Below are positions 6,059-27,790 of a stretch of DNA of 64,000 nucleotides, in pieces. A model generated the notes under the pieces. That model did not search any database, was not told the origin of the DNA, and saw nothing but the letters and a program-made list of their open reading frames with translations. Within the stretch, counting starts at the first letter, position 1. Every line of letters starts with the position of its first letter. The position numbers and the translations under genes were made by a program. Source of the stretch: Sulfurospirillum deleyianum DSM 6946 (GTDB lineage: Bacteria; Campylobacterota; Campylobacteria; Campylobacterales; Sulfurospirillaceae). The stretch spans positions 806,001 through 870,000 of the forward strand of contig NC_013512.1 in assembly GCF_000024885.1 (NCBI RefSeq), given 5' to 3'.

Positions 6059-6090
6059 TTTAAAAATCCTTTTTACATGTAAAACGTGTT

Positions 6091-21499: not shown

Positions 21500-23305
21500 A
21501 TGAGCATGCATGATTTAGAGGCGTTTGTACGCTCCATTTATCCTTTTGAGCTTTTAAGTAAACTTGAGTTGGCTCAAGCGACTGGTGCGATGAATATTGC
21601 CTACTATAAAAAAGATGAGATACTCATCTCTCCTAGCAAAGCTTCTTCTTTTTTGTACATCATTCTAAAAGGCGAAGTGGGGGAGTTTAGCGAAGATGAA
21701 CTCTTAAAGGTGTACAGCAAATCCAACTCATTTGATGCGGACGCTTTGATTTATGGGAGTACCACCAAGCAGTTTAAAGTCTTAGAAGAGCTCATTTGCT
21801 ACGAGTTAGACAAAGCCTCTTTTTTGGCGTTAATGCAGAGCAATGAAGCCTTTAAAGCCTACTTTATTCAAGACCTCGCTACTAAAATTCACTCCGCCAA
21901 ACAACGAGAGTACACCACGGAGCTTTCAGGGTTTATGATGGCATTGGTTGGGGAATGTTACTTGCACACGCCCACCATTGTGGAAAAAGAGTGTTCCATT
22001 ATGGAGGCACTTCAAGAGATGGAGGAGAAAAAGAGCAGTTGTATTGTGGTGCGCCTAGAAGAGGGGTATGGCATCGTGACGGATAGTGTCATTCGTAAGC
22101 ATGTGTTGTTTAACGGATATGATAAACATGCTTCCATTGGGGCGATTGCGCTATTTCCGCTTATCTGCATTGAGGCGAGTGATTATCTCTTTAACGCCTT
22201 GTTAAGCTTTACCAAACATGCCATTAAGCGTCTAGTGGTGATGGAGAATGGGAAGATTATTGGTATTTTAGAACAGCTGGATTTGCTTAGTTACTTTGCC
22301 AATCACTCTTATTTAGCCGCGGTAAAAATTAAAAAAGCGAGGAGCATTGAGGAGCTCAAAGAGGCGAGTGGGGATTTTATTCATATCATCAAAAAGTTAC
22401 ATGTAAAAGGGACAAAGGTGGATTATATCGCTAAGCTTGTCTCTGAACTCAACGCAAAAGTATATGAAAAGCTCTACTCCATGATAGTTCCTGAAGATTT
22501 GGCTTCCAAAGCGTGTTTGGTGGTGATGGGCAGTGAAGGGCGCAGAGAACAGCTCTTAAAAACCGACCAAGACAATGCGTTGATTATTGAAGATGGGATG
22601 GATGTGGGTGTGTATGAGCCTTATATGAAGCGTTTGAGTGAAACGCTTATTGAGTTTGGCTATCCGCCGTGCGAGGGAAACATTATGGTTTCAAATCCCT
22701 ACTGGTGCAAGTCAAAAAAAGCGTACTTAGATGAGGTGGAACGCTGGTTTGATACCCCAAGCATGGACGATGCCATGCACTTAGCCATTTTCTTTGATGC
22801 GACTGCTGTTGCGGGAGATGGCTCTTTGCTTTTGGAAGTAAAAAAAGCACTGTTTAGGCACATTGAGGCGCAAAATACCTTTATGGCGCACTTTGCGATG
22901 CCCATACTTGCCTTTGAGACGCCCATAGGTTTTTTTGCCAATTTGATTGCTAAAGAGAATAAAATCGATGTCAAAAAAGGGGGTATTTTCCCCATTGTGC
23001 ATGGTATTCGAAGTTTGGCATTGGAGCAGAAAATGGATGTGTGTGACACCGTAGGGCGCATCAAAAAGCTTGCACATTTAGGCGTGTTGGAGAGTGACTT
23101 CTCAGGCGCACTCATCGAAGCGCTCGATACCTTTTTAAACCTGCGTCTTAAAGAGCAGTTGCAACGAGGTGGAATTTTGGGAAATGATGTCAATCTTGAA
23201 GCGCTCAATGAGTTGGAGTTGGAGCTTTTAAAAGACAGCTTTAAAATTGTCAATAAATTTAAAAAGTTTCTCACCCACCACTTTAAACTCTCGATGGTGA
23301 GCTAA
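21500..23305 (+). CDS. DUF294 putative nucleotidyltransferase with cyclic-nucleotide-binding-like and CBS domains
   Basis: 601 residues. The N-terminal region (about 10-130) looks like a cNMP-binding beta-roll (ASSFLYIILKGEVGEFSEDELLKVY). A CBS pair lies at about 145-275. A GlnD-like DUF294 nucleotidyltransferase domain follows, with VVMGSEGRREQLLKTDQDNALI (about 341-362), and a C-terminal helical DUF294 domain. The architecture predicts a signal-controlled transferase; substrate and target are unknown. It is coupled by TAATG overlap to the DnaQ-like exonuclease gene, an arrangement common in this phylum. Confidence 0.88.
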   Translation: MSMHDLEAFVRSIYPFELLSKLELAQATGAMNIAYYKKDEILISPSKASSFLYIILKGEVGEFSEDELLKVYSKSNSFDADALIYGSTTKQFKVLEELICYELDKASFLALMQSNEAFKAYFIQDLATKIHSAKQREYTTELSGFMMALVGECYLHTPTIVEKECSIMEALQEMEEKKSSCIVVRLEEGYGIVTDSVIRKHVLFNGYDKHASIGAIALFPLICIEASDYLFNALLSFTKHAIKRLVVMENGKIIGILEQLDLLSYFANHSYLAAVKIKKARSIEELKEASGDFIHIIKKLHVKGTKVDYIAKLVSELNAKVYEKLYSMIVPEDLASKACLVVMGSEGRREQLLKTDQDNALIIEDGMDVGVYEPYMKRLSETLIEFGYPPCEGNIMVSNPYWCKSKKAYLDEVERWFDTPSMDDAMHLAIFFDATAVAGDGSLLLEVKKALFRHIEAQNTFMAHFAMPILAFETPIGFFANLIAKENKIDVKKGGIFPIVHGIRSLALEQKMDVCDTVGRIKKLAHLGVLESDFSGALIEALDTFLNLRLKEQLQRGGILGNDVNLEALNELELELLKDSFKIVNKFKKFLTHHFKLSMVS

Positions 23306-23916
23306 TGTTTAGCTCCTTTTTTGCCAAACGCAACGCCAAAAATCTAAACGATGAGCGGTTTCGTTTTTTATTTGAAGAAGCACCAGACGATGAGGTGGTG
23401 GTGTTTGACACCGAGACCACAGGGCTCAATCCTAAAAAAGATGAGATTCTCTCCATTGGGGCGGTGAAAGTGCGGGGCAATAAAATCTTAATGTCCGAAA
23501 AATTTGAGCTTTTTGTGAAACCTCGCTTTGAGGTGAATGAGACGAGCATTAAGATTCATCAAATTCGCAACATTGACGTACAAAATGCTCTCTCTCCTCG
23601 TGAAGCCATTGAGCAGTTTTTACATTTCATAGGCGCACGCCCTTTGGTGGGCTACTACTTAGAATTTGACGTTGCAATGATCAACAAATACCTGAAAGCG
23701 TGGCTGAATATCTACCTCCCCAACCCCCAAATCGAACTTTCAGGACTCTACCACGACAAAAAAATCAAACGTATCCCCGATGGGGTCATCGACCTGCGCT
23801 TTGATGTGATGATGAAAGAGTTGGGTCTTCCCATCTTTGGAAAACACGATGCGTTAAATGATGCTATGATGAGTGCAATGATGTATGTGAAGTTGCGCAA
23901 TGTGGAGAAATTGTAG
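23305..23916 (+). CDS. DnaQ-like 3'-5' exonuclease
   Basis: 203 residues. ExoI motif VVFDTETTGLNPKKDE (about 34-49), ExoII around GYYLEFDVAMINKYL and ExoIII HDALNDAMMSAMMY give the DEDDh active site. It is the right size for a stand-alone proofreading or repair exonuclease, or an RNase T/epsilon-like enzyme. Its start overlaps the stop of the DUF294 gene, so the two are translated together. The gap after it (23917-24017) leads into the AT-rich island. Confidence 0.88.
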   Translation: MFSSFFAKRNAKNLNDERFRFLFEEAPDDEVVVFDTETTGLNPKKDEILSIGAVKVRGNKILMSEKFELFVKPRFEVNETSIKIHQIRNIDVQNALSPREAIEQFLHFIGARPLVGYYLEFDVAMINKYLKAWLNIYLPNPQIELSGLYHDKKIKRIPDGVIDLRFDVMMKELGLPIFGKHDALNDAMMSAMMYVKLRNVEKL

Positions 23917-24017
23917 GAAGCCGTAAAGTTGAATAATTTTCTTTTTTAAGGCAATAATGACTAGAATTGGATAATTAAGTAACAAAAAGCTATCCCTTTA
24001 AAATCAAGGAAAATATT

Positions 24018-24740
24018 ATGGTTATTGATGATTTTAAAATTAAAATTCGAGCAAAGAAAATCCCTGTTAATATAAATAATTACATTATTGAGTATATCCA
24101 AGATTTGACATTACAAAACAATCATTTACAATGTGAAATATTTTTTAGAGAAGTGCTCATTGCTCAAGGTATTGTCCTTGATTTTTATAAAGAGTTTGAG
24201 ATACTTCAAGATTTTAATGGAAACCCTTTTACGCATATTTTAACATTTGAATACAATGGTCATGAATATCAGTCATATACAAGATTTGGTAAAATGATAT
24301 ATGAAATGAAATACTTAAAAAGCCCTCCTATAAAACATGAAAACAGAGAATCATATGTTGATGAAATAATTTCTCATTTCAATGGATATATTAATCATTT
24401 AAAAGAAAATCACGATAACTTAAACATCACATTGATTCCCTCAAGTTCTTTACTACCAGATGAGATTTCTGATAAACTTTCCATAATAAACGCGCTACCC
24501 CTTAAAAAAATCATCTCCAAAAATAGCCAAGTAGCTAGTAAGACTTTGACGACTGTCTCAGGTCAATCGTTGAATAAATATACTGTTGATTTAAGAGGCT
24601 TAAACACAGATGCCAATTTTATATTGATTGATGATGTGATGGGTACATGTGCTTCATTATGTGAAACGATGTATGCTTTATATCATTTTAATGAACGAAT
24701 TAATTTTTTCTTTATCCCTGTAAAAGATGTTAAAAGATGA
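24018..24740 (+). CDS. Phosphoribosyltransferase-like protein in an AT-rich island
   Basis: 240 residues. Near the C-terminus FILIDDVMGTCASL (Asp pair at about 205-206) fits the PRPP-binding loop of type I phosphoribosyltransferases, most like the ComF/orphan group. IPSSSLLPDE at about 140 would be the preceding pyrophosphate-side loop. The first 130 residues match nothing I recognise. The gene is visibly richer in A and T than its neighbours, with Ile/Asn/Lys-rich codons, which suggests recent transfer. AAGGAAAA precedes the ATG. Its TGA overlaps the next ATG (ATGA), so the two genes act as a unit. Confidence 0.65.
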   Translation: MVIDDFKIKIRAKKIPVNINNYIIEYIQDLTLQNNHLQCEIFFREVLIAQGIVLDFYKEFEILQDFNGNPFTHILTFEYNGHEYQSYTRFGKMIYEMKYLKSPPIKHENRESYVDEIISHFNGYINHLKENHDNLNITLIPSSSLLPDEISDKLSIINALPLKKIISKNSQVASKTLTTVSGQSLNKYTVDLRGLNTDANFILIDDVMGTCASLCETMYALYHFNERINFFFIPVKDVKR

Positions 24741-25492
24741 AAAATAAAGTTTTTATCAGTGGTTCTATATCAATTAAAAAGCTTCCCATAGAAGTTAAAA
24801 ATAGCATTAATAAAATTATAGAAAAAAATATTGAAATACTTGTTGGCGATGCCTCAGGGATTGATACTTTAGTCCAAGAATATTGCTCATCATTGAATTA
24901 TTTTAATGTTACTGTTTATTCTATTTATGCACGTCCAAGGTATAAAGCAAATGAGAATTTTAGAACAAAATATATTGAAGTTAATCATGATATAAAAAAA
25001 GAAAGAAACAGACAAGAAGTTAAAGATAATGCAATGACCATAGATAGTGAATTTCTTTTTACAATATGGGATGGTCGAAGTGAAGGCAGTTATGCAAATA
25101 TTCTCAGAGGGTTAGCTCATGGGAAAAAAATTAAAGTATATCTTTCAAATAAAGATTTATTTTTGAACCAAAATGAGATAACTACAAAAAACATAGAATT
25201 TATTTACAGAGAAAATAATGGCTATACAGCTTCAGAAGTGGTTGAGTATTTGAAAAATGAAGCTGAAGAAATTTTTCAAAAAAGCCAAGATTTGAATCGA
25301 TATTTGATACAAAAGTTAGTAATACAAAAAAATAATGAAATTTATATACCAACGAATCAATATGAAAGTTTATTTATTATTGATAAGTATCATGGAAAAG
25401 TAAAAGGTATTAAATTTAAAAATGAATTTCTCGATTGGATAGAGAAACATATTAAAGAAGAAAAAAAACCACAGCAATCTAGTTTGTTTTAA
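24737..25492 (+). CDS. SLOG-like (DprA/LOG/YspA-type Rossmann) nucleotide-binding protein
   Basis: 251 residues. KVFISGS at 4-10, ILVGDASGIDTL at 34-45, and FTIWDGRSEGS at 108-118 fit the SLOG superfamily, whose members bind or cleave nucleotide derivatives and include DprA, LOG and sensors of bacterial defence systems. The C-terminal 100 residues are helical and Lys-rich, ending KKPQQSSLF, of unknown function. Same AT-rich composition as the upstream phosphoribosyltransferase-like gene, to which it is coupled by ATGA. Together they may form a nucleotide-based stress or anti-phage module; this is inference. Confidence 0.65.
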   Translation: MKNKVFISGSISIKKLPIEVKNSINKIIEKNIEILVGDASGIDTLVQEYCSSLNYFNVTVYSIYARPRYKANENFRTKYIEVNHDIKKERNRQEVKDNAMTIDSEFLFTIWDGRSEGSYANILRGLAHGKKIKVYLSNKDLFLNQNEITTKNIEFIYRENNGYTASEVVEYLKNEAEEIFQKSQDLNRYLIQKLVIQKNNEIYIPTNQYESLFIIDKYHGKVKGIKFKNEFLDWIEKHIKEEKKPQQSSLF

Positions 25493-25564
25493 AGTAGCTT
25501 CAAAAACTCAAAGAACTTTTTGAAGAAATCACCCTTTAAATATCTTTACATGTAAAACCAAAAC

Positions 25565-25586
25565 CACGAGGGAAACTTCCCTCGTG
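25565..25586 (-). terminator. Rho-independent terminator of metE
   Basis: CACGAGGGAA and TTCCCTCGTG form a 9-10 bp perfect stem. On the minus strand, where metE ends at 25595, it is followed by a T-rich run (GGTTTTGGTTTT). It also closes the AT-rich island on the plus side. Confidence 0.85.
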
Positions 25587-25594
25587 ATAACACG

Positions 25595-27790
25595 CTATCG
25601 GAAGCGTTTGACTGCTTGTATCATGTTGGCAAGGGCTGCTTTGGTTTCACTCCAGCCTCTGGTTTTTAAACCACAATCAGGGTTAATCCAGAGTTGCTCT
25701 TTAGGCAGCACCTCTAAAAAGGCTTTGATTTGCTCGCTCATCTCCTCAACACTGGGCACACGAGGCGAGTGAATGTCATACACGCCTGGTCCAATTTGCG
25801 CTTTGTAGTGGGCTTTTTGGAACACTTTTAAGAGTTTATTGCCACTGCGTGACGTCTCAATGGTAATGACATCCGCATCCATCGCTTCAATGGTCTCAAT
25901 GATGTCATTGAAGTTGCTGTAACACATATGGGTGTGAATTTGCGTCTGATCCCACGCACTGCACACGGAGGCTTTAAAGCTCTCCACTGCCCATTTTTCA
26001 TAGGCTTTGATTTTTTCATTCCGCAGAGGATACCCCTCTTTAAACGCCGCTTCATCCACTTGAATAATCTTAATATCATTGCGCTGAAGTTCATCAACCT
26101 CTTCGGCAATCGCTCGTGCAACCTCGTACGCCACCTCGCTTTTAGGAATATCATCACGCACAAACGACCAGTTTAAAATGGTCACAGGTCCTGTGAGCAT
26201 TCCTTTCATTGGCTTATCGGTTAAGCTTTGCGCATAGACACTCCACTCGACACTTAAAGGCTTTCTTCGTTTGACATTGCCGTACAAAAGAGGAGGCTTG
26301 ACGCATCTGCTTCCATAGCTTTGTACCCATCCGTTTTCGCTAAAAGCAAAACCCTCGAGGAGTTCACCAAAGTACTCGACCATATCGTTGCGCTCAAATT
26401 CGCCATGTACTAGGACATCTAGTCCTATCTCTTCTTGAAACGCCACACACTCCTTGATGAGCTCTTTTAAAGCGTTTTCATAGGCTTCTTGAGTCAGCTC
26501 ACCTTTTTTATAGGCTAAACGAAGCGCTCGTGTCTCTTTGGTTTGAGGAAACGAGCCAATGGTTGTGGTTGGAAAAAGGGGAAGATTGAGCGCTTTTTGT
26601 TGAATAAGCGCACGTATGTCATACGGTGAGCGCTTCGCAAAGTGGTTGGTGTGCGCTTGAATGGTGGGTTTTTCTATCGCTTCGTTTTGTGCTGGTTTTT
26701 CTTTGTTTTCCCAGAGTGTTTGAAGCGTTTGAAGCTCAGCCAATTTTTCAAGTGCAAAGCTCAGTTTTTCTTTTACATGTAAAGGGAGTTTTTGCTCAAA
26801 GGTGGTGGAATAGGGCACATGAAGCAGTGAGCACGAGGTGCTTAAAATGAGCCTCTCTTCGCCAATCACAGCGGTGATTTTTTCCAAAAGTTCATAGGAT
26901 TTGGAAGCGTTGTTTTTCCAAACGTTTCGCCCATCAATCACTCCTGCAATCAGCACTTTGTTGTTTACATGTAAAAGTGCTTCAAGGTTTTCTACCCCAT
27001 ACACAAAATCAAGCCCAATTCCCCAAATAGGGCACTTTCCTAAGACAGCCACCGCTTCATTGGCTCTATCAAAATAGCTCACGACTGCGATTTTTAGTTT
27101 AGGTGAAACCGTGCCTAATTTCTCATAAGCGATTTTAAGAAGCGTGTAAAATTTTGGCTCTAAGCTTTTGGCAAACAACGGCTCATCAAACTGAACAATG
27201 ATGCCATCTCCTAGAGTTTCAATGCTTTTAAGTACACTTGCGTAGGCTTCTAAAAGGGCGTCAAAAAGCACAAAGGCATCCGTGTTATCAATGGTTTTAG
27301 AAAGCGCTAAAAAAGTAATCGGTCCAATAAGATTAATCTTTGGCGTAATCCCTAGCGCTTTGGCTTCATTAAACGCTTCGATGATTTTGCTCGTATCGAC
27401 ACTAAAACGAGTGTTTGCGTGCAGTTCGGGAACAATGTAGTGGTAGTTGGTGTTAAACCATTTGGTCATCTCCATCGCAGAGCGACTCTCATCGCCCCTT
27501 GCCATCGCAAAATAGCGTTTTGTAGCATCTTCAATGCCTACAAATCGCTCAGGAATCGCTCCTAAAAGGGTGATGGTATCTAACATCAAATCGTAGTAGC
27601 TAAAGTCATTGCACGAAATCATATCAATGCCGTGCGCTTTTTGGTATTCAAAGTGGCGTGCTCGAAGCTCTTTGGCAACGTCTTGAAGGGTTGAAAGCTC
27701 CGATTTTCCTGCCCAGTAGGACTCAAGAGCAAATTTTAACTCACGCTTCTCTCCGATGCGTGGAAAGCCTGTTACATAGGTTTTTAACAT
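25595..27790 (-). CDS. metE: Cobalamin-independent methionine synthase
   Basis: 731 residues. Transfers a methyl group from 5-methyltetrahydropteroyl-triglutamate to homocysteine. The N-terminal barrel begins YVTGFPRIGEKRELKFALE. The C-terminal catalytic barrel has TTIGSFPQTKETRALR, VLVHGEFERNDMVEYFGE, the zinc ligands in HTHMCYSNF and INPDCGLKTRGW, and a conserved glutamate. Slightly shorter than E. coli MetE (753). Two copies of the dispersed palindrome lie inside, coding Leu-His-Val. Monocistronic with its own terminator. No SAM riboswitch seen upstream. Confidence 0.96.
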   Translation of the reverse strand: MLKTYVTGFPRIGEKRELKFALESYWAGKSELSTLQDVAKELRARHFEYQKAHGIDMISCNDFSYYDLMLDTITLLGAIPERFVGIEDATKRYFAMARGDESRSAMEMTKWFNTNYHYIVPELHANTRFSVDTSKIIEAFNEAKALGITPKINLIGPITFLALSKTIDNTDAFVLFDALLEAYASVLKSIETLGDGIIVQFDEPLFAKSLEPKFYTLLKIAYEKLGTVSPKLKIAVVSYFDRANEAVAVLGKCPIWGIGLDFVYGVENLEALLHVNNKVLIAGVIDGRNVWKNNASKSYELLEKITAVIGEERLILSTSCSLLHVPYSTTFEQKLPLHVKEKLSFALEKLAELQTLQTLWENKEKPAQNEAIEKPTIQAHTNHFAKRSPYDIRALIQQKALNLPLFPTTTIGSFPQTKETRALRLAYKKGELTQEAYENALKELIKECVAFQEEIGLDVLVHGEFERNDMVEYFGELLEGFAFSENGWVQSYGSRCVKPPLLYGNVKRRKPLSVEWSVYAQSLTDKPMKGMLTGPVTILNWSFVRDDIPKSEVAYEVARAIAEEVDELQRNDIKIIQVDEAAFKEGYPLRNEKIKAYEKWAVESFKASVCSAWDQTQIHTHMCYSNFNDIIETIEAMDADVITIETSRSGNKLLKVFQKAHYKAQIGPGVYDIHSPRVPSVEEMSEQIKAFLEVLPKEQLWINPDCGLKTRGWSETKAALANMIQAVKRFR

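Follow-up and report, generated by a model that had tools for sequence, protein, structure and literature searches.

What do two overlapping, A+T-rich genes do when they stand between conserved genes in Sulfurospirillum deleyianum, at a site that some genus-mates leave empty and others fill with other genes, and do they belong, as the original prediction guessed, with the defence modules of bacteria? The genes lie on the forward strand of the window, by which we mean the whole 64-kb stretch of DNA that was analysed. The first (24018..24740, + strand) encodes a ComF-like phosphoribosyltransferase (PRTase) of 240 amino acids with a beta-rich N-terminal extension, and the second (24737..25492, + strand) encodes a DprA-like SLOG protein of 251 amino acids. 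Both reading frames are open and they are coupled by an ATGA overlap, as had been noted before. Our assignments draw on the reading frames, on structural models compared with solved structures in Foldseek and, for the PRTase, on a family profile. We consider the pair to be, with a probability of roughly 0.7, a horizontally acquired anti-phage module of the toxin–antitoxin type, in which the PRTase would be the toxin and the DprA-like SLOG protein its antitoxin, regulator and sensor, most likely along the lines of ShosTA or RqlHI.

The base composition of the pair sets it apart from its surroundings, in agreement with the A+T-richness reported earlier: its G+C content is 0.26-0.29, against 0.40-0.46 on either flank. 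Among the 61 open reading frames of the window, from which these statistics were taken, the PRTase (0.281) and SLOG (0.255) genes have the two lowest values, the others having a mean of 0.404, a standard deviation of 0.029 and a minimum of 0.329. The perfect 12-nucleotide palindrome TTTACATGTAAA has 15 copies in the 64-kb window, where none is expected (100 shuffles), and is absent from the pair, just as had been noted; one copy, at 25545, is just outside. Other copies are found, for example, at 6072, 26772 and 60667, and within the metE-like gene, and in genus-mates the palindrome also occurs at the cargo site, on the boundaries of insertions. The earlier statements that there is no tRNA gene nearby (within 20-30 kb) and no pair of direct repeats spanning the edges of the island were likewise borne out.

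The pair is an accessory, mobile two-gene module. On its left is a 3'-5' exonuclease-like gene (23305..23916, + strand) and on its right a metE-like methionine synthase gene (25595..27790, - strand), both conserved in the genus. The segment between them (23917..25544) is missing from three genus-mates (G264, G400 and G405), in which the flanking genes are directly adjacent, 56-68 bp apart; this spacer is essentially the terminator on the metE side, plus the palindrome in two of the three. Other genus-mates carry unrelated cargo between the same two genes. Judged by eye, it includes a nucleoside-deoxyribosyltransferase-like gene accompanying toxin–antitoxin genes of a nucleotidyltransferase/HEPN-like kind, an AAA ATPase gene accompanying RHH/MazF-like toxin–antitoxin genes, and transporters; respiratory genes are another kind of cargo. 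Over the genus-mate loci L229-L247 the gap (23917-25594) varies in this way, some being empty. A contig from a sister species (L119), whose flanks are ~84-87% identical, carries the pair here too, and the synonymous divergence of the pair (24018-25384) is 0.18-0.21 compared with 0.59 for the flanking exonuclease gene, which would fit a recent event of transfer or recombination that involved the island. The ratio dN/dS is 0.14-0.23 for both genes in a comparison with two relatives, showing that both are under purifying selection. The comparison with genus-mates upholds the horizontally acquired character that had been proposed. Two findings had been named in advance as grounds for abandoning the prediction, the lack of both expected folds and a conserved housekeeping location with normal base composition; the location is of another kind, and the folds were found.

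The model of the PRTase (AlphaFold, pLDDT 83) has as its best solved match the ComF protein of Helicobacter pylori (7p0h, E 1.6e-6), and the family profile matches many PRTases in the PDB. Its PRPP/phosphate-binding loop, IDDVMGTCAS (24627..24656, + strand), contains two aspartates, D205 and D206, that are invariant in 36 homologues; the loop is non-canonical, with GTC in place of the SG or TG of most homologues. When compared with hhalign, the family profile aligns with the PRTase domain of PsyrT (97%, E 4.2e-11) and, more weakly, with ShosT (72%). The window PRTase has no match to the PADLOC ShosT model at E<=1; relatives in Shewanella (2.4e-15) and in an E. coli P2 prophage (1.3e-8) do match it. 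The PADLOC models for ShosA and ShosT are broad and find matches in most control genomes, so we did not count a weak match alone as evidence. There were no PRTase matches among annotated phage records; contigs in IMG/VR do carry the pair.

The SLOG protein is modelled with high confidence (pLDDT 95) and its first-ranked Foldseek match is E. coli ShosA (8zva, probability 1.00, E 1.7e-4), followed by H. pylori DprA; the TM-scores against ShosA are low (0.42/0.35) despite the significant E value, and a MoCo-binding protein is also among the matches. The phosphoribosyltransferase and SLOG folds that had been called from motifs alone are thus both recovered from the models. The profile of the SLOG family aligns with ShosA/DprA weakly and over the first two motifs (hhalign E 0.015). 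All the motifs named in the prediction are present and fall in conserved blocks: FISGSISI (24752..24775, + strand) is conserved in 38 homologues, VGDASGID (24842..24865, + strand) holds the invariant residues G37, D38, A39, G41 and D43 in the same 38, and IWDGRSEGS (25064..25090, + strand) holds the invariant W111, S115 and G117; N121 is invariant too. The DSSP pattern of the model has a C-terminal domain of helices and strands (25229..25471, + strand), which is probably a winged helix. At this place an HI1420-type helix-turn-helix domain (PF21716) was detected in two of 18 homologues, some alphaproteobacterial and Xanthomonas proteins among those that have it; Pfam yields no confident family for the domain of the window protein, and a resemblance to KilAC is a weak match in one homologue.

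Neither protein gave a significant match in single-sequence searches of Pfam, NCBIfam, PADLOC and the PDB, and profile searches of the PDB that started from the SLOG alignments brought up no genuine match. The Pfam DprA family (PF02481) weakly matches five of 18 SLOG homologues (best 1.4e-4), the window protein not being among them, and the PADLOC models for ShosA and PsyrA do not match the window SLOG. The SLOG protein has one match in PHROG, named 'GTP-binding domain', which is uninformative. Membership of the YpsA clade was considered and rejected, PF06908 having no match in the genome of origin nor in the 18 homologues at E<=0.1. In Fibrobacter/Chitinispirillum metagenome-assembled genomes (MAGs), the SLOG domain is fused to a C-terminal domain of ~200 amino acids of no recognised family (L144:9995-11236 and L160:9998-11230).

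Searches seeded with SLOG alignments gave 80 genome loci and 78 viral-contig loci, from hosts that include Archaeoglobaceae, Chloroflexota, Aquificota, Firmicutes, spirochaetes and proteobacteria. The prediction had proposed looking for the same pair in other genomes, and it recurs: of the 80 genome loci, 62 have PRTase-homologous sequence at most 1.2 kb upstream of the SLOG gene. In one further locus (L126) a RecQ–PRTase gene is just downstream, and no PRTase is nearby in the remaining 17. The two proteins co-evolve, their distances being correlated over 68 pairs (mirror-tree r = 0.77, a value as high being found in 0 of 1000 permutations). Two SLOG proteins within the strongly supported clade that holds the window protein (those of G396 and L126, 55% and 49% identical to it) are encoded 21 and 16 bp from RecQ–PRTases of 695-696 amino acids. 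The latter are 76% identical to each other, and PADLOC identifies that of G396 as PsyrT (E 1e-298). Nature appears already to have tried out SLOG partners of this family with stand-alone PRTases as well as with RecQ-fused ones.

The prediction also suggested a nucleotide-based mechanism, in which one protein would make or salvage a nucleotide and the other would sense or cleave it. That part finds no support, the closest relatives by structure and by partner architecture being systems in which a PRTase toxin is paired with a DprA-like antitoxin, not nucleotide-messenger systems. A version in which infection leads the PRTase to produce a nucleotide or a derivative of one, to be sensed or cleaved by a SLOG protein that then acts by way of a C-terminal domain binding DNA, is the best of the alternatives and is still unlikely. 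It would accommodate the conserved pocket residues D205 and D206, the SLOG–HTH fusions among the homologues and the published roles of SLOG domains as cADPR sensors in Thoeris and as the nucleotide-cleaving part of LOG enzymes. The best structural matches of the window SLOG, however, are in the DNA-binding DprA/ShosA branch rather than with LOG or ThsA, the loci examined have no recurrent third gene for an effector, and the family adjoins PsyrT, whose usual partner acts by binding the PRTase domain.

We favour the toxin–antitoxin reading, in which the PRTase would be a toxic effector that interferes with nucleotide or DNA metabolism by means of its PRPP-type pocket. Its restraint would fall to the DprA-like SLOG protein, whose gene follows directly downstream; this protein would bind the PRTase, and would sense infection, most likely through phage DNA or damaged DNA intermediates. 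Infection would then lift the restraint on the PRTase and the growth of the cell would stop. Toxicity, neutralisation, DNA sensing and the effect on phage are in this picture inferred from the related systems. The pattern of gene decay is consistent with such an arrangement. A broken or truncated PRTase accompanies an intact SLOG gene at about 11 of the SLOG-seeded genome loci and likewise in G236, some frameshifts in MAGs perhaps being errors of assembly or sequencing, and both genes are broken in G024. In the PRTase-seeded set, which is small and largely overlaps the SLOG-seeded one, the SLOG gene is intact in 25 of 25 loci (22 viral contigs and three genomes). This asymmetry is the trace expected of a toxin with an obligatory antitoxin.

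The same folds might instead serve DNA handling. In a pair that mirrors ComFC-DprA of the competence machinery, with the RecQ fusion in place of ComFA, incoming or damaged single-stranded DNA would be processed and the cell would not be poisoned. ComF plus DprA is exactly the combination of folds seen here, RecQ–PRTase partners exist, and a review citing Pu et al. 2025 describes ShosA as likely to promote homologous recombination (PMC12593503). We regard this reading as slightly less probable again, because the pair is patchy and is carried on plasmids and phages, as a repair pathway of the host would not be: of 397 genomes sampled from the phylum, 10 have the SLOG gene and five the PRTase gene. 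Nor does the genome seem to want for DprA. The sole match to the PADLOC ShosA model in this genome is a separate gene just past the end of the window (G000:C1:870017-870523, ShosA/DprA profile E 1e-43), which is probably its canonical dprA.

The neighbourhoods of the pair in other genomes, taken from loci picked by hand for inspection and not from a random sample, point to defence. One homologous pair in E. coli occupies precisely the interval that separates the portal from the replication genes in a P2 prophage. One copy is beside a CBASS-like cluster of DncV-like nucleotidyltransferase, ThiF and patatin genes, another adjoins SIR2, HNH and nucleotidyltransferase genes, and another is beside an ABC-three-component system; copies also adjoin the Hachiman hamA and Septu ptuA genes or lie near restriction–modification genes. 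The CBASS-like, P2-hotspot and Hachiman/Septu contexts lend support to the early guess of a place for it among defence modules. Plasmid copies are numerous, and these and the E. coli copies are usually annotated as 'ComF family protein' with 'hypothetical protein' or 'addiction module antidote protein'. An addiction toxin–antitoxin pair that stabilises plasmids, has no anti-phage role and became stranded on the chromosome is the least probable of the alternatives, for although it would suit the plasmid copies and the other toxin–antitoxin-like genes at the genus cargo site, the pair repeatedly has phage-defence systems for neighbours and is also found in the hotspot of P2 prophages, and selection has been maintained on the chromosome.

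SLOG genes that lack a PRTase have neighbours of their own. In an Aliarcobacter MAG one follows a DRT UG5-nitrilase reverse transcriptase gene after a gap of 23 bp (L134:259-3814), and another is between type III restriction–modification genes (L168). Inspection by eye placed others beside type I restriction–modification genes and, in Bacteroidetes, downstream of RtcB-like RNA ligase genes (L184 and L198).

We set the pair apart from ShosTA and PsyrTA because the detection models of both systems fail to find it and because its partner architecture differs. Whether it represents a third, very widespread branch of PRTase/DprA toxin–antitoxin systems, invisible to PADLOC, is a tentative proposal to which we give a little less than even odds; one minimal family of SLOG antitoxins would in that case serve three PRTase architectures, namely stand-alone ComF-like, N-terminally extended and RecQ-fused. 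The competence folds of DprA and ComF would then have been reused repeatedly as the core of a defence toxin–antitoxin system. If the toxin–antitoxin reading is right, a module whose range takes in Archaeoglobaceae and Firmicutes as well as enterobacterial plasmids and P2 prophages would be an overlooked defence family missed by PADLOC, ShosTA and PsyrTA/RqlHI would be variants of one PRTase–DprA principle, and a clean test would be possible of PRTase toxin action and of infection sensing by DprA-like partners. The description of the pair as uncharacterised holds for the family in PADLOC, but earlier work has mentioned PRTase–SLOG gene pairs (PMC6459960), and the P2 hotspot has yielded a protective pair of DprA and PRTase (PMC9122126).

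Among known systems, Thoeris shares a SLOG domain, in a TIR-SLOG arrangement, and differs in that the window pair has no TIR or SIR2 partner, has exonuclease-like and metE-like neighbours and has ShosA/DprA as its nearest structures. Brzozowski et al. (2019, PMC6459960) noted one branch of YpsA whose gene is coupled to that of a PRTase; it is alike in this pairing, the window SLOG being without the PF06908 match. The DefensePredictor paper reports the validation of a PRTase-containing system that might belong to the window family (PMC13092281). The E. coli P2-hotspot DprA+PRTase system, which protects against T7 and lambda (Rousset et al. 2022, PMC9122126), has the same domain pair, and the E. 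coli homologue of the window family occupies the same portal-replication hotspot; the pair that was tested may be canonical ShosTA rather than a member of this family.

ShosTA is an anti-phage toxin–antitoxin system of a PRTase, ShosT, and a DprA-like protein, ShosA, and shares with the window pair the layout of two adjacent genes in one operon; the ShosA structure is the best solved counterpart of the SLOG model. A short form of ShosTA (L290) has the PRTase gene first, as here, whereas in L289 shosA precedes shosT and ShosT has an extra N-terminal domain, HAD-like by eye; the window PRTase has an N-terminal extension of its own. ShosA has 333-343 amino acids and the full set of DprA motifs, compared with a minimal SLOG core in the window protein, and the PADLOC models for both ShosTA proteins miss the window pair. 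According to the 2025 review (PMC12593503), which cites Pu et al., ShosT is a PRTase and pyrophosphatase that disturbs purine metabolism and ShosA binds DNA. PsyrTA/RqlHI has a PRTase domain that is homologous to the window PRTase and is fused to a RecQ helicase; the window protein is a PRTase only, such fusions being found in its relatives (L024 and L126). The partner in PsyrTA/RqlHI is DprA-like (DprA/MoCo-like) with a C-terminal HTH and may be comparable in type with the window SLOG; at ~400 amino acids it is longer, and the PsyrA model misses the window protein. In that system RqlH needs the PRTase domain, with its PRPP pocket, to be toxic, and it is restrained by the DprA-like RqlI, which binds through the PRTase domain (PMC4670107).
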